Source: a virus
DNA: 25,920 nt
Reading direction: 5' to 3' (one strand)
Virus record (IMG/VR): IMGVR_UViG_3300021389_000137
Span: 1 to 25,920 of that record
Shown here: positions 284 through 22,639 of the stretch, one piece after another
Position numbering within the stretch: position 1 is the stretch's first letter
Layout: each line of letters starts with the position of its first letter
Program-made: the position numbers and the translations under genes
Notes under the pieces: generated by a model
Told to the model about the DNA's origin: nothing
Seen by the model: the letters and a program-made list of their open reading frames with translations, nothing else
Database searches by the model: none

Positions 284-547
284 TTAATCCGCAGCCATCT
301 TCTCGACAGCACCGCGAATGTGTTGGATGTTTTCATCGATACGAGCCATGCTTACCGCTTGGCTTTGTACCATGTTCTCAACTTTCGACACTCGCTCAGA
401 GAAAGCTATAAGTTTCTCAGTGTTCTGCTGGATGTCTGCCATCATCATGCTGACTGTCCATACTATAGCAGCAGCTTGGGTCATGAGGCCGAGAAGAAGA
501 GTTGCGGGGACACTTCTGGAGATGTGCCAACCATCTTGCTCTTTCAT
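284..547 (-). CDS. Membrane-anchored coiled-coil protein, 87 aa, near a likely lysis region
   Basis: The start codon shares its A with the stop of the upstream chaperone gene (TAATG at 549-545), indicating translational coupling. Residues 1-11 are polar (MKEQDGWHISR). About residues 13-36 form one hydrophobic segment (VPATLLLGLMTQAAAIVW). The remainder has heptad spacing typical of a coiled coil (LIAFSERVSKVENMV and onward). One membrane span plus a soluble coiled coil is a recurring design of short phage proteins encoded after tail genes and before endolysins, sometimes annotated as holin- or spanin-related. No lysozyme or amidase is visible here, so a lysis role is inference only. Confidence 0.75.
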   Translation of the reverse strand: MKEQDGWHISRSVPATLLLGLMTQAAAIVWTVSMMMADIQQNTEKLIAFSERVSKVENMVQSQAVSMARIDENIQHIRGAVEKMAAD

Positions 548-963
548 TAGCTAGGCTTAGTCGGCCATGTAATGTCGTGTGGAAAGCCAGATTGCTGTGG
601 TACATCTAGTAACGCTTGGCGGTATGTGGACCATGCAGCCTGTGTATCAGCATCAAGTGCAGCCCAGCGAAGTGCATTGCCAGCAATAGCATCTACTTCT
701 GTAAGACGACCGTCCCGATCTGCACGAACCTGTGCTGCTGCGGCTGCATCTAGCTCTGCTTGTGTAGGCGGAACATATGCCGCGAAGTCATCACCGATCA
801 AAGCCATGACTGCATCGTTGTCAATGGTTGTATCAGTGTCAGCAGGGTCAAGAGTGTAAGGTATCCAGCCGTGCTGTGGGTGGTTAATCTCTACGTCCAT
901 ACGAAGGTTGTCTGCTTGAAGAGATGCCGCATTGCGGATTTGTGTAATTGTTACGGAAGACAT
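547..963 (-). CDS. Phage tail assembly chaperone-like protein (cassette 3), 138 aa
   Basis: The C-terminal part (about residues 85-138) has the layout of the Phage_tail_APC family: RADRDGRLTEVDA, then TQAAWSTYRQALLDVP, then GFPHDITWPTKP. Proteins with this WxxYRQALxDxxxxxGFPxxxxWPxKP pattern are tail-fibre assembly chaperones usually encoded right after the fibre they help fold. The N-terminal half is a separate acidic domain (TLDPADTDTTIDND). It starts 1 nt after the stop of the 106-residue tip-like gene and overlaps the next start by one base. An AAGGA ribosome site lies about nine bases before the ATG. Family assignment rests on the motif; which fibre it serves is inferred from adjacency. 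Confidence 0.8.
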   Translation of the reverse strand: MSSVTITQIRNAASLQADNLRMDVEINHPQHGWIPYTLDPADTDTTIDNDAVMALIGDDFAAYVPPTQAELDAAAAAQVRADRDGRLTEVDAIAGNALRWAALDADTQAAWSTYRQALLDVPQQSGFPHDITWPTKPS

Positions 964-964
964 A

Positions 965-1285
965 TTAGGAAATCCTTAACCAAATAGTGGTTTGATATGC
1001 AGGGTTAGTTCCTCCAGAAACGTAAGACCCCGTATAGACATAACCTGTGTTACCCATGACCTGCCATGTACCTGAAGGAGCCGAATCTCTTGCACCTGCC
1101 GCATCAAGCGGAGAATAATCCCCAGTATTTGCCCAGCGCAGACCAGAACCTGCAACCGTAGTACCCTGAACTCTTTCTATCGCTGAAGTAGTCATCAAAC
1201 AAGCATAAGTCCCAACAGCACCTGCGGTTGTATTACCAACAGTAGCACTATCAAAGTTGTCATCACCTCGTATTACACTAGCCAT
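965..1285 (-). CDS. Short tail fibre tip-like protein (cassette 3), 106 aa
   Basis: The protein ends with SGTWQVMGNTGYVY, a Gly/Thr-rich stretch and the terminal residues TTIWLRIS. The pattern SGTWxxMG followed by a C-terminal xLWLRIS-type strand is common at the extreme C-terminus of phage tail fibres. No trimeric stalk or particle-binding N-terminus is present, so it may be a tip that attaches to another fibre. Its start lies 1 nt beyond the stop of the upstream chaperone, and its own chaperone follows. It resembles the tip-like proteins of the other two pairs in position and size but not obviously in sequence. Confidence 0.7.
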   Translation of the reverse strand: MASVIRGDDNFDSATVGNTTAGAVGTYACLMTTSAIERVQGTTVAGSGLRWANTGDYSPLDAAGARDSAPSGTWQVMGNTGYVYTGSYVSGGTNPAYQTTIWLRIS

Positions 1286-1286
1286 A

Positions 1287-1646
1287 TCATTCCACCGTTA
1301 CGTTAGGGATGGGCTGGATTGCTTTGAGTTCAGCAGGAGTAGTAGCAGCGTCAATGCTTGCTAATGAAGGTGCATCACGCAAGGCTTGCTTGTCAGAGAT
1401 GATCTGTGTCGTGTCAGCACCCGTCTCAAGTGCCTTCATGTAGGCTGTGTCTAGTGCAGCCAATGGCTCAATACGAGCTTGACGTATCTTGTTACGCCAG
1501 ATGTCCTTGGCTGCTGCCATGTCTACAGAGATGACACCAGTATCAGCATTAGCTTCCCAAGCGTCACGGAATGTGCGCTCTGCTGGTACTTCATAGTCTG
1601 CGGCGTCATAAGATGTTGCGCCTATCTTGATGAAAGTTTGTGTCAT
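1287..1646 (-). CDS. Tail assembly chaperone-like protein (cassette 2), 119 aa
   Basis: Around residues 20-33 it carries VPAERTFRDAW, then a helical section (VDMAAAKDIWRNKIRQAR, LAALDTAYMKALE), then KQALRDAP and a final ATTPAELKAIQP. This order matches chaperone-like proteins that follow tail fibre genes in many phages of alphaproteobacteria (pattern known to me from family memory). GGAGT lies six bases upstream of the ATG. The ATG overlaps the stop of a 19-codon upstream frame (ATGA). The VPxxRxFRxAW motif recurs at the very C-terminus of the chaperone of pair 1, which suggests both derive from one ancestral gene. Confidence 0.75.
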   Translation of the reverse strand: MTQTFIKIGATSYDAADYEVPAERTFRDAWEANADTGVISVDMAAAKDIWRNKIRQARIEPLAALDTAYMKALETGADTTQIISDKQALRDAPSLASIDAATTPAELKAIQPIPNVTVE

Positions 1647-1702
1647 TGTGTTACTCCGTGGAAAGTGTGCGGGTCTTCAAAGATTACTCTGTAGTTGCTC
1701 AT
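1643..1702 (-). pseudogene. 19-codon remnant of the MSNYRVIFEDP chaperone gene, now a coupling mini-ORF
   Basis: The frame reads MSNYRVIFEDPHTFHGVTQ and then stops. Its first 11 residues are identical to the start of the 130-residue chaperone of pair 1, and the DNA (1671-1702) matches 2425-2456 at 31 of 32 positions. After residue 11 the two diverge completely. Its ATG overlaps the stop of the upstream tip gene (ATGA) and its TGA overlaps the next chaperone's ATG (ATGA). The simplest reading is that a full-length copy lost its middle by deletion, leaving a short frame that still links translation of its neighbours. Confidence 0.75.
1671..1702. repeat. 32-bp direct repeat, copy A
   Basis: This segment differs from 2425-2456 at only one base. 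Both copies encode the first 11 codons MSNYRVIFEDP on the minus strand and both sit immediately after a tip-like gene. It marks the boundary of the duplicated tip/chaperone pairs and provides short homology for recombination between them. Confidence 0.9.
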
Positions 1703-2067
1703 AGCGTTGTAACCACCGATACTATGTCTAGGTCACCAATTTGACCAACAGAACTAGCACCACCATTGTTGCCAGTCGTGATTTGAACTGAACTTGTGCT
1801 GGGTGTGGTACCGTCCTTAATAGCAGCACCCGCATTGGGGTGGTTAAGAAATCCGATGGCTCCAAAGACCGCAGCGTAATTAGCTCCCGACATACTGGTT
1901 GTAAAATTTACCGTATAAATACCTGTTCCACCGTCAGTAATACTACTTACATTGCCGTCAGCACGGATAGCGACAGTACCAGTGCCGTCGAAGTTCACCC
2001 AAGCCTTAGCCGTGTATTGACCAGCGCCACCTGTAGTCTGTAACGTATCAACCTTTAATGTACTCAT
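1699..2067 (-). CDS. Short tail fibre tip-like protein (cassette 2), 122 aa
   Basis: I choose the ATG at 2067, which overlaps the preceding chaperone's stop (ATGA) and has GGAGG eight bases upstream. A GTG-initiated extension to 2082 is less likely. The protein begins MSTLKVDTLQ and contains GNVSSITDGGTGIYTVNF near residues 38-55, followed by a Ser/Thr/Gly-rich beta-type C-terminus. The same GNVSSxTDGGxGIxTxNFxxSxS pattern occurs in the 142-residue tip-like protein of pair 1, so the two are homologous. Phage fibre C-terminal modules of this kind bind host surface sugars or proteins. Here the module stands alone as a separate polypeptide. Confidence 0.75.
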   Translation of the reverse strand: MSTLKVDTLQTTGGAGQYTAKAWVNFDGTGTVAIRADGNVSSITDGGTGIYTVNFTTSMSGANYAAVFGAIGFLNHPNAGAAIKDGTTPSTSSVQITTGNNGGASSVGQIGDLDIVSVVTTL

Positions 2068-2456
2068 GCTGCTAACCTCCACGCATTACGGAACTGTCTG
2101 TCAGACGGTACATCTGCTGTCTTAACAATCTTAAACATTGGTCTGTTGTACTCCACCGACCAGATATGACGAGGGATGTCTTTCATGATGAGATACTCAA
2201 TAGCTTCTTCTTCTGTGAGAGGCCCAATACGGGGTGCTGTCCACTGTGCTGCATGTTTCTCTGGGTCATGCTTGAAGGTGTCGTGGCGACCCTCAGCCAT
2301 GGCTTGTTGCTCATCATCTTGCAAAGCCCAGTAAACTGAGATGGGTGGCAGTAGCCCAGCCTTGGCTTCTTCAAGCCAGTTGTCACTAGGGACAAGCACC
2401 ATTGCGGGTTGCTCTGGTTGCTCTGGGTCTTCAAAGATTACTCTGTAATTGCTCAT
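2064..2456 (-). CDS. Tail assembly chaperone-like protein (cassette 1), 130 aa
   Basis: It begins MSNYRVIFEDP, has a Pro/Gln-rich linker (EQPEQPAM), a middle domain with EEEAIEYLIMKDIP, and ends with DVPSDRQFRNAWRLAA. The VPxDRxFRxAW motif is a hallmark of chaperone-like proteins encoded after fibre genes. Here the protein stops directly after the motif, whereas the pair 2 chaperone continues for some 85 more residues. Its ATG shares a base with the upstream stop (TAATG at 2458-2454). Its last codons contain the GGAGG ribosome site of the next gene. It may be a naturally short or C-terminally truncated member. Confidence 0.75.
   Translation of the reverse strand: MSNYRVIFEDPEQPEQPAMVLVPSDNWLEEAKAGLLPPISVYWALQDDEQQAMAEGRHDTFKHDPEKHAAQWTAPRIGPLTEEEAIEYLIMKDIPRHIWSVEYNRPMFKIVKTADVPSDRQFRNAWRLAA
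2425..2456. repeat. 32-bp direct repeat, copy B
   Basis: Copy B of the near-identical repeat also found at 1671-1702. It forms the 5' end of the intact 130-residue chaperone gene. The two copies are about 754 bp apart, which is close to the length of one tip-plus-chaperone pair. Confidence 0.9.
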
Positions 2457-2884
2457 TAAAGTACAACCGTAATGGAGTTATACACAGAGTCATATCGAGA
2501 ATTACCATAATACACTGTCGCCGTTTGTACAGAACTAGTTGTCTTTCCAGTGTAGACTCCCATCGTGCGATAAGGGTCATTAGAAGCTGCCCCCGCGGCT
2601 ACACCTAGAGAGTAAGTAGACGCACTTAAACTGTTGCTAAAGTTAGCAGTAGTTATGCCTACACCCCCGTCCGTTAAAGAGCTTACATTGCCACTGTTGT
2701 AAAGGGTATGAGTGCCAACTTGAGTCCAGTTACCCCAAGCCACGATTGAACCCGCACCACCTAAACTACCAAGGTCTACATCTTGGTCAGGTAGTGTAAT
2801 AGTCCGTGCTGAGTTAGTATTGGGCGCTGTGAGTGTAACACTACCCGATCCGCTGGAATTACCCTGTAGTTTAATAGTAGCCAT
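2456..2884 (-). CDS. Short tail fibre tip-like protein (cassette 1), 142 aa
   Basis: The ATG follows the stop of the giant fibre gene with no gap (TAA then ATG). Residues 1-40 contain LQGNSSGSGSVTLTAPNT and RTITLPDQ, a strand-rich pattern common in T4-like and cyanophage fibres. The second half carries GNVSSLTDGGVGITTANF, shared with the pair 2 tip protein, and ends in NSITVVL. It lacks a particle-attachment domain. The likely role is a receptor-binding tip or cap acting with the adjacent collagen-like fibre. That partnership is inferred from adjacency. Confidence 0.75.
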   Translation of the reverse strand: MATIKLQGNSSGSGSVTLTAPNTNSARTITLPDQDVDLGSLGGAGSIVAWGNWTQVGTHTLYNSGNVSSLTDGGVGITTANFSNSLSASTYSLGVAAGAASNDPYRTMGVYTGKTTSSVQTATVYYGNSRYDSVYNSITVVL

Positions 2885-5800
2885 TTAGATCACCGTCCAT
2901 GTTTCGCCAGCACCGACTGTTACAGTCACACCGGAGTTAATCGTGATAGGGCCAGCACTCATTGCGTTCTTGCCATTTGTGATTGTGTAGCTGGAAGTTA
3001 CAGCCTGTCCGTTTTCCCAGAAGATGTCATTAGTAGCACTTGCGGAAATACCTGTTAGGCTTGAACCGTTACCGTGGAAGCTAGGCGCATGGATAGGTTC
3101 AGCAGAAGTAATCTGTGAGTCATTTATCTCAAAGCGTTCAGTACCGCCTGTAACAACACGCCATTGGTTGCCTGAGTGAAACTGCATGTAGGTATCAGTG
3201 TCAGCGGTTGAGGTTATTTTATCATCTACAGTGATATTCTCAACATCAAGAATAGAGTTGTTACCAAGGCTTACGTTACCTGTAAAAGTACCACCGCCAA
3301 ATGGGTTGCCAGATGGACCTGTAGCACCTGTAGCACCTGTAGCACCCGCAGGACCTGTAGGACCTTGAGGACCAGCCGAACCAGTAGCACCTGTGTTACC
3401 AGTATCACCTTGCAGACCCTGAGAACCTTGAGGACCTGTTGCACCCTGTGGGCCTGTAGGACCTTCGTCACCTTCTGGTCCCTGAATGCCTTGAGGTCCT
3501 GTAGAACCCGTAGCTCCGGTGTCACCCGTTGGGCCTTGCGCCCCTGTTGCACCCTGTGGGCCTGTAGCGCCATCATTGCCATCTGCACCAGCTGGACCTG
3601 TAGCCCCTGTGTTGCCAATTGGGCCTTGAGGACCCGTAGCCCCTGTGTTGCCAATTGGACCTTGTGGACCTGTGGCTCCTTGTGGACCTGTGGCTCCTTG
3701 TGGACCTGTGGCTCCGTCTGCTCCGTCTGCTCCTTGAATACCTTGAGGACCCTGTGGGCCTGTAGCGCCAGTAGGACCATCAGCACCATCAGCTCCGTCC
3801 GTTCCGTTAGTACCGTCTGCACCATCTGCACCTGCCGGACCCTGTATGCCTTGGATGCCTTGGATGCCTTGCGCCCCGTCATTACCATCTGCCCCGTCAG
3901 CACCAGCTGGTCCTTGTGGGCCTGTCGGTCCTGTCGGTCCAGCTACAGTACTATCTGCTCCGTCTGCACCGTCTGCACCAGCTGGTCCTTGTGGGCCTGT
4001 GTTACCGATGGGACCCTGTGGGCCTGTAGCACCTGTTGGACCATCATCGCCTTGAGGTCCTTGAGGACCTGTATTGCCTATATTACCCTGTGGGCCTGTA
4101 GGGCCTGTATTGCCGGTAGGACCTTGAGGACCTGTAGCACCTGTAGCACCGTCATCTCCTACGGGACCTTGTGGACCTGTAGCACCTGCAACACCCTGTG
4201 GCCCTTGGACACCATCATCACCCTGTGGTCCCTGTGTACCTTGAGAACCTTGAGGGCCTGTATTTCCAATGGGACCTTGTGGGCCTGTAGGTCCTGTAGG
4301 TCCTGTATCACCTATACCTTGGGGTCCTGTCGGTCCTGTAGCACCCGTAGGTCCTGTATTTCCAATTGGGCCTTGGATACCTTGGGGACCTTGATCGCCT
4401 TGGACACCATCATCACCTTGAGGACCTGTAGGTCCTGTATTTCCGGTCAAACCTTGTGGACCTTGTGGGCCTGTATCACCTTGTGGTCCCTCTGGGCCTT
4501 GAGCGCCAGTCGAGCCTGTATTGCCGATAGGACCTTGTGGTCCTGTAGAACCAGTAGCACCTGTAGCACCTGTAGCACCATCGTCACCCGCAACACCTTG
4601 AGGACCTGTAGGTCCTGTGTTGCCGATAGGACCTTGAGGTCCTGTTGGTCCTGTATCACCTACGTCACCTTGGGGTCCTGTTGGACCCTGTGCGCCTATA
4701 GGAATACCAAATGAAAAAGCGCCTGTTCCATTAGTCGCTGTTACAGACGCCGTAGCTGAGGCCCCAGCGGCCAAAGTAGTAGCTGTTGCAGTTGCATCGA
4801 TAATTACATCTATCGCTTCCGCAGCATCTCGCGCAGCTTCAGCAGCAGCCTGTGCTGTTTCGGCATTAGTCTCAGCCGTTTCAGCATTAGTCTCAGAAGT
4901 TTCAGCAGCGGCCTGCGCAGCAAGTGCAGCGTCTTTGGCAGCCTCAGATGCAGTGGCGGTGGAAGCACTAGCAGTTGCAGATGCAGCAGCTTCTCCAGCT
5001 TTAGTCGTCGCTATGCCAGCTTGCGTTGTGGCTGTCGCGGCGCTTGTGGAAGCATTAGTCTCACTTGCAGCCGCATTTGCCTCACTGGTCGCCGCAGCGG
5101 CTTCTGAAGTCGAGGCTGCGTCCCTAGCAGCTTCACTAGCAGCTTGTGCAGTTTGACTAGCAGTCTTCGCGGTTTCTGAAGCAACCTGTGCGGCCACACT
5201 AGCAATGCGAGAAGTTTCACTAGCTGTCTCGCTGGTTGCAGCATTACCTTCGCTGGTTGCGCTATTGGCTTCACTGGTTGCCGCAGCGTTTTGACTCGCT
5301 AGAGAAGCAGCGGCACTAGCAGCACTCTCTGCCGCTTTAGTCGTAGAGATGCCAGCTTGAGTTGTTGCCACACCTTGCGAGGCTGCGGCATTGGTTTCGC
5401 TAGTTAAAGCATTAGATGCGCTCGTAGATGCAGCAGATTCACTAGCAGCCGCGTTGGTCTCAGACGTATCAGCATTGGTCTCAGCAGTTTCCGCAGCGGC
5501 CTGCGCAGCAACGCTGGCTATACGAGAGGTTTCACTTGCTGTGGCGCTGTTAGAGGCATTTGACTCACTGGTTGAGGCGTTGGCCTCGCTGGTTGCCGCA
5601 GCGTTTTCACTGGCTAGAGCAGCAGAGGCACTAGCAGCACTTTCAGCAGCTTTGGTTGTAGAGATGCCAGCCTGTGTTGTTGCCACGCCTTCTGAGGCTG
5701 CGGCGTTGGTTTCGTTAGTTGAAGCATTAGATGCGCTTGTAGAAGCAACAGATGCACTAGCAGCAGCGTTAGCCTCAGCAGCTTCAGCAGCAACCTTAGC

Positions 5801-6391
5801 CACACCAGCGGCCACGTTAGACGCTTCCGATGCAGCAGAGCTGGTTGCACTATTGGATGCCTCTGTGACAGCTGTGGAGGCGCTAGTGGCCGCAGCATTC
5901 TTGGAGGATAAAGCAGCGGCTGCACTGGCGGCAGCATTGGTCTCTGCTGTTTCCGCAGCAACCTCTGCGGCTCCAGAAGCTACCTCAGATACACTGGCTG
6001 CGTCACGGGCAGTCTCTGCTGCGGTCTTGGCTGTTTCTGCGGCGACCTCAGCGGCCTCAGATGCAACTCTGGATGCCTGTGAGGCTGCGGCAGAGGTGTT
6101 GCTGGCTGCGGCACTAGCTGCGCTCTCAGAAGCCTTTGTGGTGGCTGTGGTTACAGAGGCTGATACAGAAGCAGCTGAGTTTGCAGAGGCAGCAGCAGAG
6201 GCAGCAGCAGCAGCTTCAGAGGCAGCAGCAGCAGCTTCAGAGAGGGCCGCTGCGTTCTTACTGTCCTCAATTGCACTGATATTGTTGGGCACCACAGGGT
6301 TAAGAAGTGGAGAGTTTTCTGGGGCAACTGGGTCAACATTAGGATTGTCAGCTGTGACACCAGTGCTGCTATAAAAGGAAGATTTAGCCAT
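2885..6391 (-). CDS. Collagen-like tail fibre with Ala-rich repeat stalk, 1168 aa
   Basis: The protein has four visible parts. Residues 1-35 form a non-repetitive N-terminus ([17 protein letters not shown]) that would attach to the particle. About residues 40-550 are Ala/Ser/Glu/Thr-rich with repeated ETNAAAS and [15 protein letters not shown] blocks, recalling lambda side-tail-fibre stalks and likely to be helical coiled coil. About residues 567-1030 are uninterrupted Gly-X-Y triplets ([15 protein letters not shown]), a collagen-like triple helix. Residues 1035-1168 form a globular tip with [13 protein letters not shown] and a terminal [18 protein letters not shown] pattern typical of phage fibre ends. 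It directly follows the head-tail adaptor gene. A GAGGT ribosome site precedes the ATG. No self-cleaving chaperone domain is seen. Confidence 0.9.
3310..4690. repeat. Collagen-coding repetitive DNA (Gly-X-Y codons)
   Basis: On the plus strand the region is built from variants of ggacctgta, ggtcct and gggcct, in a 9-base rhythm. This is the reverse complement of GPT, GPQ, GAT and GNT codon triplets. Several larger blocks recur, for example the segments encoding [16 protein letters not shown]. Such DNA expands and contracts easily by slippage or recombination, so stalk length may vary between relatives. The triplet register stays intact along the whole stretch. Confidence 0.9.
4860..6130. repeat. 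Imperfect ~105-112-residue repeats in the Ala-rich fibre stalk
   Basis: The block encoding [17 protein letters not shown] appears around 5630-5690 and again around 5320-5375, exactly 315 bases (105 codons) apart judged by the gagatgcc anchor at 5661 and 5346. A third, more diverged version ([17 protein letters not shown]) lies 336 bases further on, near 5010. Each unit also carries [17 protein letters not shown] and [11 protein letters not shown]-type segments. A fourth, weaker version may lie near 6120. The pattern points to tandem duplication of a stalk segment. Confidence 0.8.
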
Positions 6392-14017: not shown

Positions 14018-17000
14018 TTACGCGGAAAGGGCACCCATACCCGGAGGTGGGGGACTTAGAGCACCAGGAGGCATCTGCATCCTCTGCTTCTCTTCCTCTT
14101 CTTCAGCCATAGCCTGGGCCAGCATAGCCATGACCGTAGCCATGACGATAGCAGCTGGGTGGTTGAAGAATTTGACCTTGTTGTTACCGGCGTTGTTGAA
14201 TTGTTGCCTGATAAGGGCAGCCGTCTTAGGCATAACCGCTTTCGCCAGCTTAGGGTTGATCAGGTAAACCAACACGGGATCAACAGCCAACTCGCGTACA
14301 CTCTGCATGTAGTTAGTGTAGTAGTCAGCCTGCTCCTCACGGTTGGCCATGCCTGTGTCTACCTCGGCTTGAGAGATTTGACCGGCATCAAATTGCTTCT
14401 GGTAATAACCCTTCCAATCCTTGAGATTGTCCGACAACTTACGAACTTCCCGTACCGCATGACGCTGCGAAGGATCTTTGGTTGTGTAAGTATCCACATT
14501 CAGCTGGAGATTATCTAGCTCGGCCATGATGTCGGCGTCACCCGTCTGTTCCAATAGGGGTCTCATAGCACTACCAGCAAAGGATCCCATGGGTGCCCGG
14601 TCACTTTCCCCGGTCAGGGGGTTGGTAAACAGGGTGTCTTCAACCTGAGAACCATTCAGATCTAAGGGGCTCAATGTCATCCCATGGGCAATCTCATGGA
14701 TCAAATCAGAGAGAGCTTGGATGTTACTTACGGAACCGCCGTCATCCAGCAAAGCTCCTGGGTTGAGACCAAAGACAGTGCCTTCTGCACCTTTTCCGCC
14801 TGTTTCAGGGCCCTTCCGATAGAACGAGGCAACCGCAGTGGGATCGCCAGATCCATATGCAGCAAGGCGCGAGGCATACATCTCACCTTGGCTGTCAAAT
14901 AGACGGACAGTGATGCCGAGGGTGTGTGCCAAGCTCAGAGCCTGGTCGATAGACTGGATCCCATTCTCTTCTGGGGTTCCACGTTTGCCAACCTGGAAGG
15001 TCGCTTTTACCTGGGGGACAAACTTCTTGACCGCTGCAAGAGCTACCCTTGCGAGAGTGCGCCCTTTGGAGGCCCCGCCATCACTGGACCTGGGTGTTCG
15101 TCCACCAGCTGGCCCAGGGGGGCTGAGGAGGGCGGGTTGGATGCTGTTGTCGGGTCCGCTAGAGGCATCAAGTTGCCGTCCATTGGGAACTGCTTGATCT
15201 TGCCGTAGTTGGCCATCAGCTGTTGGAACTTGGTTGCCATATTCAGTAGCCTTTTCTGCTAGGGCATCTAAGTTGACGCCATCTCTAGTGTACCATGGTG
15301 CGTTGCCGCTATTACTGACCGAGAACTTGGCCGGTACGACCTTATTCTTAGGCTTCTTGATCTCATCCAAGAACTCACGGAAAGCGGGTACAGTGAACTT
15401 GAACTCGCCGCGATCTGGTATGCTGTACTTAAACATTGGCTGGCCATTTTCAAGTCCATACTTTGCGCCATAAGCATAAGCACCGTATTCGCCTTCTTTT
15501 GCAGTTACGCCATCGAGAGGATTAGGGTCTCCCTGCGCCTTTGCTAAGATAGCATCGATAGTACCGTGGGACGCCTCCTGCTCAGATGACGCAACCCAGG
15601 TTTCCCAGTGGTAACGCCCGACAGATGCGGCGTCTGGACGCCCAATGTCCCCATATATCTTGGGTAGACGCTGAGACAGGGATTTCTCCATAGCCTCATA
15701 GATCATCAAACCTTTTGCGCCATTTGTCTGAGTGGCTAACCCAGATCCAGTTACTACTTTTGATTTACCATCTTTCGGGTCTTTTTCTTTGTAGCCATCA
15801 TAAAGGTTAATACCATCAAAGCGCCCATCATTGTACATCTGACGGATCTGAACCCTATCAAGAACCATGACATCATTGTACCCGGCAACTAACAGTGTGA
15901 AGGACACTACTTTATTGTCGATACCGACACCCTCACCTATCTTAGTGAACTCGCGGCGCACTTGGTTACCTGTAGTGTTAGGGTCTGACATTAAATCGTG
16001 GATATACTGAAGACGACTACGGTTATCCTCTGGGCTAACATCTTGAGACATCTTCATAAGAAAATCGACACCAAATGCATTTAGGTTGTGCATTGCACCG
16101 GCACCTGGTTGTCCAGACCCCTGTGGCGCAGTTTGAGCAGCCCATGCTTTATATTCAGGGAGACGTTCTTTTAGTGTCTTGTTGGCGGCAGCTTCAATCC
16201 ACTGATCAATACCTTCAAAACTATCCAGAAATAAACTTTCTTGGGTGTAAGGGCTAACCCCTCTGGAAAGAAATGACCAAAGAAACAAACGACCTGTGTC
16301 GGCTATGCCAATTTCATTGTTGATGTATGCCTGCCTGAACATTGCCGCATTTTCAAAACCATGATCCGCATCTGCAATTTGCCCTGGTGTCAGTTTACCT
16401 AAAAGCTCCTGAGCACCGCCATTATTGAGGTCATTGATAAAACCATTTGGTTGGACAGGGACATCTGAGCTCGCCAGGGCATCACCCTGGTAAGCAGACC
16501 AGGCTTCAGGTGATCCTGCGGGGTCGTCGTGCCTAGAAAGAACCTCCGTTAAACCTTCAATTTGCCTGCCAGCATTCGCGTTCTTGGTTGAAGCCAAGAT
16601 CACAGATTTACCATCCCTAGCAGGCGCTGTTGTGCGTAAGTGAGGCAAAAGCCCATGGTTTGTGTTGCGGGGGCCTTGCTGCTCTTCTGGTTTTATCTGT
16701 CCCTCCACTACTATGGTTTTAGGACCAAGTGCAGTAGGCTGGAGTATCTGGGGTGCCGTGATGTTGGGGGTGCGACTGTCGTCAGCTGCTGGTGCAGGTT
16801 TATCAACGTAGATACCCTCTTCAGGAATACTACGAGCATCGTCAGACATAGGTTGGTTGGGTATCTCAATACGGATCGCCGACTGGCCTGGTACTGTACT
16901 GACTTGCGCTGATGGGGCAGACATAGATCGTGCGATAGCATCTGACAGACCAATCACCCGGCTGGCTTTAAGTCCCGGAGCCAGCTCTAATTCATACACT

Positions 17001-19939
17001 GCGACAGCAGGGTCTGAGCTAGCGTTGGTAATCTCACCTTTGACGCCGTAATCATCCAACACGCTTTCCAATACGCGAGAATTGACCTCTAAATCAGCGT
17101 CAGAGATAGGTTGGCCTGGGTTACCAGTGCCCTGGGCTTGCTCTAGGACACTGGGTGCCGGTGCAGTCTCAGTATTGACGGCAGGTCCACCTTGTATTGC
17201 AGCTTGAGTGGCCTGGGCCTGCTTCAGCATCGACGGTTTGCGCTTCTGCTGGCGGCGAACCCGATCGACATAGGGCTTATAGAACTTGTCCACGTTCTCC
17301 TGGGAGACACCCTCATCAACGAGTAGCTGTTGGACCTCTTCCATGGCCTCGATTGGCATATTCTCAGTCTGGACAGCTTCAAGTGCCACATAGAGGGCCT
17401 GGGCCTCATCTTCGAGCATTGTAGGCGTCAGGTTCCCACCGGGGCGGTTCGTAGCCTGGCGGTTCTGGAGATCGAGTGTATCCAAGACCTGCTCTTGAAG
17501 TTTCAAGGCAGTGTCACGGTTAGCCTGGATGCCTGCCTGGTAGTTCTCGGACGTAGTTGTCTGATTGCCGTTAACCGTAGGCTGCGCTGGGGCAGTTGTG
17601 TCAACATTTGGTGCCGGAGACGCCTGGGCAGCAGGGGCTGCGTCCATCTTGGGCGCATTGCCCATCTGGATTGCCCGAGCTTGGGCCAGGGGCTGGTCTG
17701 GAAGGCTAGTACGCTGAACGCTACTTCCGCCGTCCATGAGACTGGCGTCCAGGTGGTTGTTCACCAGGTTGACCAACTGGGTTAGAGCCCGGATAGGCCG
17801 CTGCTCACCGTTAAGACCGGCCTGGGCATCATCGAGGACCTTGTTGACCGCCACATCATTGGGGTTCTTGCTGTCAGCTGGGTGCTTCAAGCGTAATTCA
17901 GAGACCACTGTTTGGATCTCTTCTGCGGGGATACCTGTGCCGACCGCGACAGTGCCCAATGGGCTGCCATCTGTGGCGTTGCCTGTCATGCCTGCAAGTG
18001 TACTGACGATGTTGGCGTCTTCTGCCTCCTGGGCTGCCCTGGCTGCTGCATCGTCAGCCTTAGCTTGCTCTGCCTGCTGTTTTTCGAGTTGAGCGGCGGC
18101 AATCAGAGATGGACCCTGGGGAGCATCTTGGCCAACGAGTTTCTCGAGCTTCGTTACAAAGCGGTTGACCTTGGAACGGCGACCCGTGGCTGCATCAAAG
18201 GCCCGACCGGCGGCAACAATGCCTGCGGACTTCAGTGGGCCAACAACAGATGCACCATAGATGCTACCAATTGTACTGAGACTGCGGTTGGGGTCGTAGT
18301 TACCTGAATTGTCAGTGAAGGGGTTTAGGAAGTCTGTGAATTGACTGACGCCGCCCTTGAGGCCGTCCTGGAAGAGATCTGTGAGGACATCCCCCTGGTC
18401 AAACAGCTGCTGTAGCTGCGCGGCTTCTTGTGTAGGGCCGAGGAGGCGGACGATAGCGTCAGCATTCTCTTTTGTGACCTTAGATTTGACTTTGTTTTTA
18501 CCCTGGCGGATTGCGGTCTGGGCTAGGGCGTAGGTTCCAAGGAGATCCTCGAGGGTAGCCACATTCTTTGGAGAAAGACGGGATTTGACTGCCGGGTCCT
18601 TGGCTATTGCCGAGATCTGGCCCGAGATCTTCTCATGTGCAGCCTCGAGTGTAGCTTTTGCTCCACCACCGGCGCGTACATCCTTGAGGTTGTTGCCTTG
18701 AGCTTCTGATATTTCGCGGAGGGTACGAGCCAGGTCAGCAGCTGCGCCACCATATGCGGGGTCACCTTCAATCTTGGACCGCCAAGGTGCTTGGCCAGCT
18801 ACCATGGCTTCTGGAACGGTAGATGCACCACCGGCGAGGCCTTCTGTGATGTTCTCTTTAAAGCTCTGTTCATCGCCTACAGCTGCGGTTGCTGCGCTTT
18901 CTCCAGCAGCCTCAGACGAACCTTGAGCAAGTGTCTGCCTGGCAAGGCTTTTCTTGAAGAACTCACGCGCAACGAGGCCCTGGCCTGCAAAGTCGGCTGC
19001 CGCAATTACAACACCACGGGTAACGCCTCGGGAGTTCGCCTCATCCATCAACTGTGGGTCGTTAAACATCTTCTTGGCGGCAGTCGGGTCCGAGAGGTCA
19101 ATGCCATTCTCTTCTAGGAAACTAGCAACTTCATTGCCGTACTCTCTGGCAAAACCACCAGATCCCATGACAAGGGCACCGGCTTTAGGTGATCTGGTCA
19201 ATAAAGAGGTTGTCAGGCCTGCCGCAATTTGAGCGCCGCTTTCAGCTACTGTCTCACCTATAAACTCTACGAAACCTACAGGGTCATTTGTTACTGTACT
19301 AAGCCAACCTTTCCAGGTGTCTGGGGCCTTGGCTAATTCTTCGGCATATATACCACCCCTAACACCCCTTGGGATTGCTGCGGCTTTGTCTTGTAAATCA
19401 CCGGCGTATTGGGCGTTAGTTTTGATGCGCTCCCATTGGGCGTCTATCTCGTCCTGTGGATTTGACCGGAGATTAGTGGCATTTTCAATGCGCTTATCTA
19501 AGGTCTGGAGGTAATCAACCTTTTCTCCTGGTTTGAGATTGTACCTGTCCTGTAGTGCATCAACACTGCGGCGACCCTCTAGGGTGTTTACGTCCAGGTT
19601 GACGCTTCTACCCGCCATGGCCTCTAAGGGCACACGGGTTTTCATCAGCTCATCGTAAGCAAGGGCGTTGACACCACCTGGCTGCTGTAGCTGGTAAGCG
19701 TCTTGGAATTTCTGGATGTCAGCCACGGCTAAGGCCGTTGGTATGCCTGCATACGTCTGGATAGCGCCACGCTTCAAAGCACGACCAATAGATACACCTT
19801 CTGGGTTAACCTCGGGTTCAGAGGCTGCGGGAGCCTGGCCACGCTCTTGTTGAGCCAGGTATGCAATAGCGCCTTCTGCGGTGGCACCTTGCACGGTTAC
19901 GGTTCGCCCGTCAGGCGTTTTTATCTTAAATTCAGGCAT
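14018..19939 (-). CDS. Giant internal/ejection protein with zincin-like HEIAH motif, 1973 aa
   Basis: The largest gene here, placed after two smaller ejection-type genes. Residues 1-31 form a small strand-rich domain (MPEFKIKTPDGRTVTVQGAT) common at the start of giant phage virion proteins. About residues 210-390 contain Gly/Ala-rich hydrophobic stretches (ESGAQIAAGLTTSLLTR, GALVMGSGGFAREYGNE) that could interact with membranes. About residues 650-1080 are Pro/Ala/Gln-rich linkers. About 1100-1575 is a folded domain (FLWSFLSRGVSP, SFTLLVAGYNDVMVLDRVQI) like those of polyvalent phage proteins. HEIAH at 1748-1752 is a zinc metallopeptidase signature. A C-terminal hydrophobic helix (about 1926-1946) is followed by an acidic run and a Pro-rich tail. 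It is probably packed in the head and injected with DNA. The third zinc ligand is uncertain. Confidence 0.8.
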   Translation of the reverse strand: MPEFKIKTPDGRTVTVQGATAEGAIAYLAQQERGQAPAASEPEVNPEGVSIGRALKRGAIQTYAGIPTALAVADIQKFQDAYQLQQPGGVNALAYDELMKTRVPLEAMAGRSVNLDVNTLEGRRSVDALQDRYNLKPGEKVDYLQTLDKRIENATNLRSNPQDEIDAQWERIKTNAQYAGDLQDKAAAIPRGVRGGIYAEELAKAPDTWKGWLSTVTNDPVGFVEFIGETVAESGAQIAAGLTTSLLTRSPKAGALVMGSGGFAREYGNEVASFLEENGIDLSDPTAAKKMFNDPQLMDEANSRGVTRGVVIAAADFAGQGLVAREFFKKSLARQTLAQGSSEAAGESAATAAVGDEQSFKENITEGLAGGASTVPEAMVAGQAPWRSKIEGDPAYGGAAADLARTLREISEAQGNNLKDVRAGGGAKATLEAAHEKISGQISAIAKDPAVKSRLSPKNVATLEDLLGTYALAQTAIRQGKNKVKSKVTKENADAIVRLLGPTQEAAQLQQLFDQGDVLTDLFQDGLKGGVSQFTDFLNPFTDNSGNYDPNRSLSTIGSIYGASVVGPLKSAGIVAAGRAFDAATGRRSKVNRFVTKLEKLVGQDAPQGPSLIAAAQLEKQQAEQAKADDAAARAAQEAEDANIVSTLAGMTGNATDGSPLGTVAVGTGIPAEEIQTVVSELRLKHPADSKNPNDVAVNKVLDDAQAGLNGEQRPIRALTQLVNLVNNHLDASLMDGGSSVQRTSLPDQPLAQARAIQMGNAPKMDAAPAAQASPAPNVDTTAPAQPTVNGNQTTTSENYQAGIQANRDTALKLQEQVLDTLDLQNRQATNRPGGNLTPTMLEDEAQALYVALEAVQTENMPIEAMEEVQQLLVDEGVSQENVDKFYKPYVDRVRRQQKRKPSMLKQAQATQAAIQGGPAVNTETAPAPSVLEQAQGTGNPGQPISDADLEVNSRVLESVLDDYGVKGEITNASSDPAVAVYELELAPGLKASRVIGLSDAIARSMSAPSAQVSTVPGQSAIRIEIPNQPMSDDARSIPEEGIYVDKPAPAADDSRTPNITAPQILQPTALGPKTIVVEGQIKPEEQQGPRNTNHGLLPHLRTTAPARDGKSVILASTKNANAGRQIEGLTEVLSRHDDPAGSPEAWSAYQGDALASSDVPVQPNGFINDLNNGGAQELLGKLTPGQIADADHGFENAAMFRQAYINNEIGIADTGRLFLWSFLSRGVSPYTQESLFLDSFEGIDQWIEAAANKTLKERLPEYKAWAAQTAPQGSGQPGAGAMHNLNAFGVDFLMKMSQDVSPEDNRSRLQYIHDLMSDPNTTGNQVRREFTKIGEGVGIDNKVVSFTLLVAGYNDVMVLDRVQIRQMYNDGRFDGINLYDGYKEKDPKDGKSKVVTGSGLATQTNGAKGLMIYEAMEKSLSQRLPKIYGDIGRPDAASVGRYHWETWVASSEQEASHGTIDAILAKAQGDPNPLDGVTAKEGEYGAYAYGAKYGLENGQPMFKYSIPDRGEFKFTVPAFREFLDEIKKPKNKVVPAKFSVSNSGNAPWYTRDGVNLDALAEKATEYGNQVPTADGQLRQDQAVPNGRQLDASSGPDNSIQPALLSPPGPAGGRTPRSSDGGASKGRTLARVALAAVKKFVPQVKATFQVGKRGTPEENGIQSIDQALSLAHTLGITVRLFDSQGEMYASRLAAYGSGDPTAVASFYRKGPETGGKGAEGTVFGLNPGALLDDGGSVSNIQALSDLIHEIAHGMTLSPLDLNGSQVEDTLFTNPLTGESDRAPMGSFAGSAMRPLLEQTGDADIMAELDNLQLNVDTYTTKDPSQRHAVREVRKLSDNLKDWKGYYQKQFDAGQISQAEVDTGMANREEQADYYTNYMQSVRELAVDPVLVYLINPKLAKAVMPKTAALIRQQFNNAGNNKVKFFNHPAAIVMATVMAMLAQAMAEEEEEKQRMQMPPGALSPPPPGMGALSA

Positions 19940-21845: not shown

Positions 21846-22361
21846 TTATTCCTCTTCACTCATCAGTGTGTGGGTTTGCATAAAGTCCTCGAGGCCAGAC
21901 AGATCTGGTTCCTCCAAACCCATTGCTGAGTAAGTTGGGCTTATGACCTCTTCTTCTATGTCTGAGAGATCTTCTTCTTGGTTGTGCTTTGTTAGATGCA
22001 CGGTCGTTAGGATTGCATCCTCGAGGACGTGAAAGGCCCTCTTGGATCCCGCCGGTGAGACAAAGGTCACAGGTGCAACCAGGTCCTGTTTGCCACCATT
22101 CTCAGAAACAACCAGGACGCGGCCTTGCATCAGGAAAGTCAGGTGAGGCAGCTTGTGTAGCTTACCTACGCAGACCGTACCTTCAGGCATAAACAGCTGA
22201 CGTGCATACTGGGCACAGCCATATTCGTCGCTCACAGGGGTAAAGTAATGCTCAACAGTAGCGTCCAGCTGTCTGTCTTGAATGTCTCCACGCTCAATAC
22301 CAAGGTCGAGAATATACTGAAGAGAGGAGATGTCAGATCGTATGCTAAGGTCATGCTTCAT
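21846..22361 (-). CDS. Cupin-like phage protein, 171 aa
   Basis: The ATG at 22361 overlaps the upstream stop (ATGA). A TTG extension to 22373 is rejected. The core (about residues 60-125) resembles the two cupin motifs: GTVCVGKLHKLPHLTFLMQG for the first, and PVTFVSPAGSKRAFHVLEDA for the second, with histidines at matching places. Cupins are small beta barrels that can bind a metal or a sugar. Here the barrel is followed by an acidic C-terminal tail (EEDLSDIEEE, EEPDLSGLEDF). Cupin-like genes occur in structural regions of several podoviruses, without a proven role. It sits between the nozzle and ejection genes. Whether the histidines hold a metal is unknown. Confidence 0.65.
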   Translation of the reverse strand: MKHDLSIRSDISSLQYILDLGIERGDIQDRQLDATVEHYFTPVSDEYGCAQYARQLFMPEGTVCVGKLHKLPHLTFLMQGRVLVVSENGGKQDLVAPVTFVSPAGSKRAFHVLEDAILTTVHLTKHNQEEDLSDIEEEVISPTYSAMGLEEPDLSGLEDFMQTHTLMSEEE

Positions 22362-22639
22362 ACTGCCACCCAAGCTGTGCCATTGTAGACAACAAGACCC
22401 TCGGATCCGTCACCTTTAGGGTCCCAGGGAGATACAGCATAGCGAACCATGCCCTTCCTGGAGTTATCAGGTTGCCGGTCGGTAGCTTGGATTGACGCAT
22501 CCGCGAGAGACTGGATGACAGCCTCGATTTCGCGGTATTCCTCCTGGACGTAGTTGCCCAGGTTCTCTTTTGCCAACAAAGGTATCTGCCGCCGGACATA
22601 GCGGTTGACCAGGAGATTAAGTTTATCTGATAGAGACAT
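22358..22639 (-). CDS. Small tail-region protein, 93 aa, function unknown
   Basis: A very strong ribosome site (GGAGGT, 5 nt before the ATG) sits inside the last codons of the nozzle gene. The first 60 residues are helical and charged (KLNLLVNRYVRRQIPLLAK, YVQEEYREIEAVIQSLAD). The last 30 (MVRYAVSPWDPKGDGSEGLV, ending YNGTAWVAV) resemble a short beta module often found at the C-terminus of small podovirus tail-region proteins, with the pattern MRYxxxxxWDPxxGxGxYxYNGxxW. A minor tail component is likely. The helical-then-beta layout would suit a trimeric attachment piece, which is inference. Confidence 0.6.
   Translation of the reverse strand: MSLSDKLNLLVNRYVRRQIPLLAKENLGNYVQEEYREIEAVIQSLADASIQATDRQPDNSRKGMVRYAVSPWDPKGDGSEGLVVYNGTAWVAV

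Follow-up and report, generated by a model that had tools for sequence, protein, structure and literature searches.

Independent swapping of small tail-fibre tips in marine phages suggests a putative plug-in system for switching host receptors

The gp38 adhesin of T-even phages is hypervariable, and its gene adjoins the fibre gene. It is a small separate protein that binds non-covalently at the distal end of the fibre and sets the host range (PMC7289586, PMC12892980). In other systems (Mu Tfa, Alteromonas phage V22 gp26/gp27 and Phage_tail_APC), a tip end is followed directly by its chaperone gene. Fibre genes are hypervariable in marine metaviromic islands (PMC3909814), the variable region of Cobavirus contains two tail fibres and three tail assembly chaperones (PMC6775973), and the Ackermannviridae exchange by recombination several receptor-binding proteins whose attachment parts are conserved (PMC11414711). 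Phages are already known to exchange tail-fibre tips, to carry host-recognition islands and to have more than one receptor-binding protein, and a previous sequence-only reading of the locus described here went too far in proposing it as an undescribed system.

We analysed a stretch of 25,920 nucleotides from a marine bacterial virus (IMG/VR record IMGVR_UViG_3300021389_000137, positions 1 to 25,920; hereafter the window) and compared it with 80 relatives from IMG/VR, with sequenced phages and with contigs of alphaproteobacteria. The six open reading frames (ORFs) proposed at positions 547-2884 are present on the minus strand (142, 130, 122, 119, 106 and 138 aa), and the tip genes lie, as proposed, directly past a long collagen-repeat fibre gene (1168 aa). 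The features of the locus, read along the minus strand, are as follows.

2885 to 6391, minus strand: stalk, collagen-repeat fibre of 1168 aa (PF01391, E 1.1e-67; PHROG tail fibre families)
2885 to 3025, minus strand: C-terminal domain of the stalk, about 46 residues ('dock'), ending at the stop codon
2456 to 2884, minus strand: tip1, 142 aa, leader and tip domain (phrog_11355 tail fiber, E 2e-4)
2064 to 2456, minus strand: ChapA, 130 aa, partner linked to the tips, putatively a chaperone or loading factor (90-100% identical among near relatives)
2425 to 2456, minus strand: 32 nt at the ChapA 5' end, the parent copy in a direct repeat
1699 to 2067, minus strand: tip2, 122 aa, an insertion that separates ChapA from ChapB (phrog_11355 tail fiber, E 8e-16)
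1643 to 1702, minus strand: footprint of the ChapA 5' end, a 19-codon ORF (MSNYRVIFEDPHTFHGVTQ, then a stop) that overlaps the stop of tip2 and the start of ChapB
1287 to 1646, minus strand: ChapB, 119 aa, partner linked to the tips, putatively for tail-fibre assembly (phrog_20196, E 1.9e-23; phrog_4912 'tail fiber assembly', E 7e-5)
965 to 1285, minus strand: tip3, 106 aa, separate tip family with the APC partner (family profile against 9b45)
547 to 963, minus strand: Phage_tail_APC tail-fibre assembly chaperone, 138 aa (PF16778, E 1.7e-18; phrog_4628, E 1.4e-32)

The tip2 ORF has 122 aa when read from the ATG at 2067 and 127 aa from an upstream GTG. A further fibre-adhesin-like gene is located in the window at 21846-22373.

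The genes had been read as three complete tip and chaperone pairs, but the actual layout is a tip-ChapA-[tip2]-ChapB triple followed by a tip3-APC pair. ChapA and ChapB adjoin in 51 of the 80 loci in which both are visible; in the window, tip2 sits between them. Nor do starts and stops touch throughout, as had been claimed, since tip2 and ChapB are separated by 52 nt, a stretch filled by a leftover piece of the ChapA 5' end. Puniceispirillum phage HMO-2011 carries members of this tip family together with ChapA and ChapB (gp36 and gp35) and the stalk C-terminal domain, and HMO-2011-type phages have many stand-alone tips in one array; however, there ChapA and ChapB are adjacent with the tips outside, whereas tip2 splits them in the window. 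Annotations of the small genes in HMO-2011-type phages go no further than putative tail fibre, tail-related or hypothetical protein.

The window tips resemble the S16-/PP01-type gp38 adhesin of the T-even gp37/gp38 system as small separate proteins that would be placed at the distal end of the fibre, but they match no GP38 family, and the window has several tips of two unrelated families interleaved with conserved partners. The tip3-APC pair is like the known fibre and chaperone pairs, whereas the tip-ChapA-ChapB arrangement has two unfamiliar partners and a tip detached from the stalk. The marine islands and Cobavirus were described as variable regions or gene content; the window resolves the exchange unit, its boundaries and its footprints. 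The Ackermannviridae proteins are large tailspikes in a branched complex, in contrast to tips of about 120 residues with separate partner genes.

Tips 1 and 2 constitute one tip family with ChapA and ChapB as partner genes. They are homologous (BLASTP, E 5e-13) and share the motif noted earlier (GNVSSLTDGGVGITTANF and GNVSSITDGGTGIYTVNF). The tip1 leader (TIKLQGNSSGSGSVTLTAPNTNSARTITLPD) stands at the N-terminus and recurs close to the N-terminus of several different small proteins. An AlphaFold2 model of tip2 is all-beta (pLDDT 89) and matched no PDB fold at E<=0.001; a PDB sequence search with the tip1/tip2 family gave nothing significant, and none of the three tips matched a Pfam family, GP38 included, at E<=1. 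In 15 loci, a domain of this family is fused to the fibre end directly before ChapA, and long fibre ORFs that end in such a domain and are followed by ChapA-ChapB include those of Insolitispirillum contigs.

Tip3 belongs to a second tip family, with Phage_tail_APC as partner; kinship with tips 1 and 2 was considered and rejected, as they are unrelated. The gene at 547-963 passes the curated cut-off of PF16778 (66.7 bits against 26.6) and has the expected APC motif (YRQALLDVPQQSGFPHDITWPTKP; E 1.7e-18), and tip3 ends, as noted earlier, in SGTW..MG...WLRIS. The tip3 family profile matches the C-terminus of the solved tail fibre gp47 (9b45; E 1.7e-4). About half of the tip3 relatives are fibre C-termini with APC next: tip3 ends a long ORF followed by APC in 44 matches and stands alone before APC in 43. 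Tip3-APC is a genuine tip and chaperone pair. Since members of both tip families elsewhere form fibre C-termini with the same partner gene or genes next, the small proteins are fibre tips, and putatively the receptor-binding ends of the fibre.

The partners of tips 1 and 2 are less familiar. ChapA, for which the candidates from a single IMG/VR scan include at least 491 relatives, has no family in Pfam, PHROG or NCBIfam, and is unrelated to Phage_tail_APC (hhalign probability 0.1%, no Pfam match). Its model is confident (pLDDT 85.7), with no PDB fold match at E<=0.001; the best BFVD match, to an unnamed phage protein (A0A6J5RLZ7), is weak (E 0.018). PDB sequence searches with ChapA and ChapB gave nothing significant. 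The likeness earlier noted between these two proteins holds for the motif (VPSDRQFRNAW and VPAERTFRDAW) but not for their full length: they have in common one peptide of 12-19 residues, at the C-terminus of ChapA and near the N-terminus of ChapB. ChapB scored 12.9 bits against PF16778 (cut-off 26.6; Pfam E 0.1), and we rejected the idea that it is a divergent APC, the profile comparison being not significant (hhalign probability 1.2%); a weak link to tail fiber assembly is given by phrog_4912 (E 7e-5). As the likeness of ChapB to APC is weak, the label 'chaperone' rests mainly on position and linkage, and both proteins are presumed chaperones. Another possibility, to which we give a minor share of belief, is that ChapA and ChapB are virion adaptors or caps that stay on the tip, as do Mu Tfa or S16 gp38. 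Tip-bound accessory proteins are already known (PMC7289586), and a confidently modelled ChapA that nevertheless matches no known fold would suit such a role; however, ChapA and ChapB are highly conserved across very different tips, unlike exposed receptor-binding adhesins.

Comparison of relatives showed independent exchange of the tip bodies, both between related phages and between unrelated ones, against a background of conserved partners. Among near relatives, ChapA is 90-100% and ChapB 79-99% identical, and the median identities of the tips are far lower (34, 43 and 48%). For example, the relative L010 has 100% identity to the window in ChapA, 97% in ChapB and 88% in APC, with 44-48% in the tips. 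Over 66 pairs, median identity was 94% for ChapA, 82% for ChapB, 34% for tip1 and 43% for tip2; the tip fell below both partners in 128 of 132 comparisons, and tip1 identity was uncorrelated with tip2 identity. Similarity at the DNA level breaks off inside each tip and returns at the next partner gene, and near relatives show no DNA similarity in the body of tip1. L010 and L011 have tip3 in common (99.4% at the DNA level) but not tip1 or tip2, and L010 and L012 have tip2 in common (94%) but not tip1 or tip3; with near-identical tips thus occurring in differing combinations, each slot reassorts independently. The tip and partner module was found on two unrelated podovirus backbones.

Tip cassettes also shift between slots, leaving the first codons of the partner gene as footprints. 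The tip tree indicates changes of slot, and the sequence past tip2 is identical to the ChapA start at 31 of 32 nt. The footprint is at the same position in L011, and decayed footprints are present in L014, L020, L022, L023, L027, L033 and L057. The earlier proposal of several stand-alone tips per stalk shuffled by recombination is thus strongly supported by hypervariability, independent reassortment, slot moves and relatives that are fibre C-termini.

The extreme variability of the tips might also be produced by dedicated machinery, such as a diversity-generating retroelement or an invertase, instead of ordinary recombination, but this is very improbable: whole tip bodies are replaced rather than single adenine sites, no reverse transcriptase or recombinase is among the PHROG-matched genes of the window (the record is a fragment), and no long inverted repeats flank the tips. 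The inverted repeats found are short and imperfect, and inversion as a tip switch, of the kind in Mu-type invertible fibre cassettes, was rejected on that basis. Slot changes and footprints would also be expected if one tip were displayed at a time and the rest formed a silent or poorly expressed store for recombination. We consider this unlikely, because the window tips are all intact and tightly packed with start-stop overlaps, and two intact tips are kept in 26 of 28 near relatives; a silent store predicts broken tips, which ORF-based detection may under-count.

The window stalk ends in a small C-terminal domain in place of its own tip, and the separate tip genes come next. Of 55 loci with stand-alone tips, 51 have this domain ahead of the tips; of 17 fused-tip fibres, none has it (Fisher p 4e-13, for related phages and uncorrected for kinship). 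Among near-relative loci, a detached tip1 goes together with another tip lodged between ChapA and ChapB in 26 of 28, and a fused tip accompanies ChapA-ChapB adjacency in 18 of 18. The domain is terminal in all 108 matches, from loci fetched with the domain itself. Our first idea, that it is solely a tip dock, was weakened by the 24 of 96 loci (fetched by the domain alone, with enough downstream sequence) in which a 76-aa coiled-coil protein follows in place of a tip; the domain is thus not reserved for tips. These tipless loci, the strictly terminal position and the presence in the window of another fibre-adhesin-like gene (21846-22373) would also fit a self-sufficient fibre end, with the stalk and the small tips in different tail structures and the tips acting as short fibres or tail-hub adhesins. 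The partition between stand-alone (51/55) and fused (0/17) tips, however, fits a tip that is either covalent or docked on the same stalk, and we regard separate structures as rather unlikely.

The explanation that we consider probable is a receptor-binding tip array, in which exchangeable tips are attached non-covalently to one stalk and matured by dedicated partners. The stalk C-terminal domain would be the attachment point and the tip1 leader one attachment element, and ChapA/ChapB and APC may help the tips to fold, trimerise or load. If the partners act on conserved parts of the tips, one partner set could serve many tip alleles. With several tips, a phage could build virions of mixed tip content or have tips ready to choose from, and a swap of a cassette of about 120 residues would change receptor specificity with the stalk untouched. 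More tentatively, we propose that marine phages of several families may possess a plug-in receptor-binding system, in which a stalk with a docking domain takes several stand-alone tips simultaneously, ChapA and ChapB load them, the first codons of the next partner mark the boundaries of the circulating cassettes, and a single virion can bear a mixed tip set that is rapidly reshuffled.

New here are a ChapA/ChapB module split by a tip gene, the footprints of the ChapA head and, at the C-terminus of the stalk, a domain that accompanies detached tips. How uncultured marine phages contend with fast-changing bacterial surfaces is a long-standing question, and the usual answer is a 'variable fibre region'. 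The present locus defines the exchange unit, a tip of about 120 residues in set slots that reassort independently, and it singles out a domain of the stalk, together with two partner proteins not yet characterised, for direct testing. The independent tip swapping in relatives suggests, from sequence comparison, a plug-in system with which the virus could change the host receptor that it grips. If docking is true, small detachable tips would be a simple route to many specificities per stalk.

The window is taken from a virus record in IMG/VR, and the following features are discussed here.

6391-2885, minus strand: ORF for a collagen-repeat fibre of 1168 aa (the stalk)
Downstream of the fibre, down to 547, minus strand: six ORFs of 142 (tip1), 130 (ChapA), 122 (tip2), 119 (ChapB), 106 (tip3) and 138 aa (APC)
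14018-19939: 1973-aa protein without any PHROG match
21846-22373: second fibre-adhesin-like gene (phrog_12032 short tail fiber, E 2.5e-28), at the distal end of the structural genes

The sequence-only reading had described the six small genes as three equivalent pairs of a fibre tip and a chaperone. All of the motifs that it cited were found in the ORFs, and tip1 and tip2 are homologous by sequence comparison; both match PHROG family 11355 (tail fibre), and sequence comparison found no relationship between tip3 and either of them. As for the three chaperones, the last gene is a Phage_tail_APC protein (PF16778, E 1.7e-18), but it is the only recognised chaperone of the array. ChapA and ChapB do have a peptide in common, but only this stretch of 12-19 residues (VPxxRxFRxAW), located at the C-terminus of ChapA (2079-2111) and the N-terminus of ChapB (1554-1586). 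In cyanophage 9515-10a (L006; L numbers denote the compared loci), the peptide closes a 67-aa ORF, directly followed by a ChapB-like ORF without it.

Locus comparison contradicted the three equivalent pairs. Protein searches found ChapA adjoining ChapB in HMO-2011, two cyanophages and Dunaliella virus SI2. In a set of 80 loci with ChapA from one IMG/VR scan, annotated with profiles built for this analysis, the two genes were adjacent in 51 of 80 loci with both visible (scan loci and sequenced phages), and in the other 29 they were separated by at least one tip, by a tip and APC, or by a tip, tip3 and APC. Among near relatives of the window, a tip fused to the end of a long fibre ORF was always accompanied by adjacent ChapA and ChapB (18/18), and a detached tip1 nearly always by a second tip between them (26/28). 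Tip3 and APC move as a unit, seen after ChapB, between tip2 and ChapB, and before ChapA. By gene order, then, the array consists of a triple, tip-ChapA-(tip2)-ChapB, and a pair, tip3-APC. The tip-ChapA order also occurs in genome contigs of alphaproteobacteria (Terasakiella, Curvivirga, Microvirga, Insolitispirillum and MAGs); in every contig except one, ChapB follows. Each of two contigs (L173 and L174) from one Insolitispirillum peregrinum genome has ChapA and ChapB behind a fused tip, which suggests that this bacterium has the module twice.

The small proteins are very probably fibre tips. In Dunaliella virus SI2, Insolitispirillum and many IMG/VR loci, a longer fibre ORF has the tip1/tip2 domain as its C-terminal part, and ChapA and ChapB come next. 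Tip3 is followed by APC in two settings: 44 matches close an ORF that has over 120 residues ahead of the tip3 part, and 43 are stand-alone ORFs. A profile of the tip3 family matches the last 76 residues of the solved tail fibre gp47 (9b45, E 1.7e-4). The AlphaFold2 model of tip2 is an all-beta fold (pLDDT 89) without a significant match among PDB folds. The tip is more variable in sequence in its second half than in its first.

Tips almost certainly reassort independently of each other. L010 and the window have ChapA, ChapB and APC proteins that are 100%, 97% and 88% identical, and tips that are only 44-48% identical. In DNA comparisons of such near relatives, the sequences are about 78-97% similar across the fibre end and into tip1, where the similarity stops after the first part of the gene. 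It restarts at the ChapA start, reaches the first 8-135 nt of tip2 and breaks off, restarts at or just before ChapB, enters the tip3 start, breaks off, and restarts in APC. Median identities over the 66 pairs of twelve near relatives were 94 for ChapA, 82 for ChapB, 34 for tip1 and 43 for tip2, and over 28 pairs 67 for APC and 48 for tip3; in 128 of 132 comparisons, the tip (tip1 or tip2) diverged more than either partner did. Identities of ChapA and ChapB were correlated (rho 0.69) and those of tip1 and tip2 were not (rho -0.15, p 0.22), these figures being descriptions rather than strict tests because the pairs are not independent. L010 shares tip3 with L011 (99.4% over 312 nt) and tip2 with L012 (94% over 354 nt), while the bodies of the other two tips differ in each case. 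In a tree of 82 tips, with few columns and many unresolved forks, the slots were intermixed with at least 12 slot changes, and strongly supported pairs joined slot 2 of L054 with slot 1 of L057, and slot 2 of L014 with the fused tip of L028.

Tip2 and ChapB are separated by a gap of 52 nt, which together with the flanking start-stop overlaps contains a 19-codon ORF, the first 32 nt of which are a copy of the ChapA start with one mismatch. The same footprint lies within a 93% similar block in L011, and shortened or decayed ones were found at the tip2 stop in L027, L014, L022, L023, L020 and L033. The footprint of L057 does not agree with its own ChapA start, and in L017 and L027 a remnant of the ChapB head comes after tip2, with an additional tip between it and the real ChapB. 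On the simplest reading, an incoming tip cassette would carry the first codons of the partner gene that came after the tip in the donor, and the footprints may be their leftovers.

The last 46 or so residues of the stalk, without a significant Pfam or PDB match, end several PHROG fibre families. This domain precedes 51 of 55 stand-alone tip arrays and is absent from all 17 fused-tip fibres (Fisher p 4e-13, uncorrected for relatedness); before stand-alone arrays its end is nearly always the fibre stop codon, and in three of the four arrays without it, the ORFs are 264-284 aa long and look like fusions. All 108 matches in loci fetched with the domain itself were C-terminal; the domain (2885-3025 in the window; L175-L283) is widespread among the fibres of marine phages, always as their last part. 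Of the 96 matches with enough sequence downstream, 36 were followed by a tip or tip3, 13 by an ORF bearing a tip-type leader, 24 by a coiled-coil protein of 76 aa and 23 by something else. Several different small proteins have the tip1 leader, TLTAPNTNSxRTITLPD, close to their N-terminus. Docking of tips on the domain is thus plausible, with the balance about even, but would not be its exclusive use. The coiled-coil protein, in place of the tip in the 24 loci, is conserved and has EKQxxxW.

The window portal shares about 30% identity with the portals of podoviruses of Pseudomonas, PaP4 for example, and the window's backbone genes also occur in L010, L011, L031 and L051. The ChapA of L014 is 97% identical, and the DNA maturases of L014 are 99-100% identical to those of Roseobacter phage CRP-114 (Autographiviridae). 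In L014, L007 and the window, the genes for the fibre end, the partners and the membrane protein downstream have about 82-93% DNA identity, a sharing that crosses unrelated backbones (PaP4-like portal versus Autographiviridae maturases). The virus probably infects a marine alphaproteobacterium of the Roseobacter type. The only phage matches of the 1973-aa protein were short, low-identity stretches.

In marine phages, the exchange of fibre tips and host-recognition islands are already known (PMC3909814, PMC7029224). Also known are chaperones of fibres (PMC7289586, PMC10579305), cobaviruses that have several fibres and several chaperones (PMC6775973), multi-receptor complexes (PMC11414711) and gp38 tips (PMC12892980). 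In a literature search that covered few subscription journals, no account was found of ChapA and ChapB as a module, its interruption by tip2, the footprints or the association of the stalk domain with stand-alone tips; within the literature searched, these are new. Since the confident ChapA model (pLDDT 85.7) had no match among PDB folds, we infer its chaperone role from linkage only. Display of several tips in one virion is conceivable, though we lean against it; it is rather likely that the tips are served by dedicated partner sets, ChapA with ChapB for tip1 and tip2 and APC for tip3.
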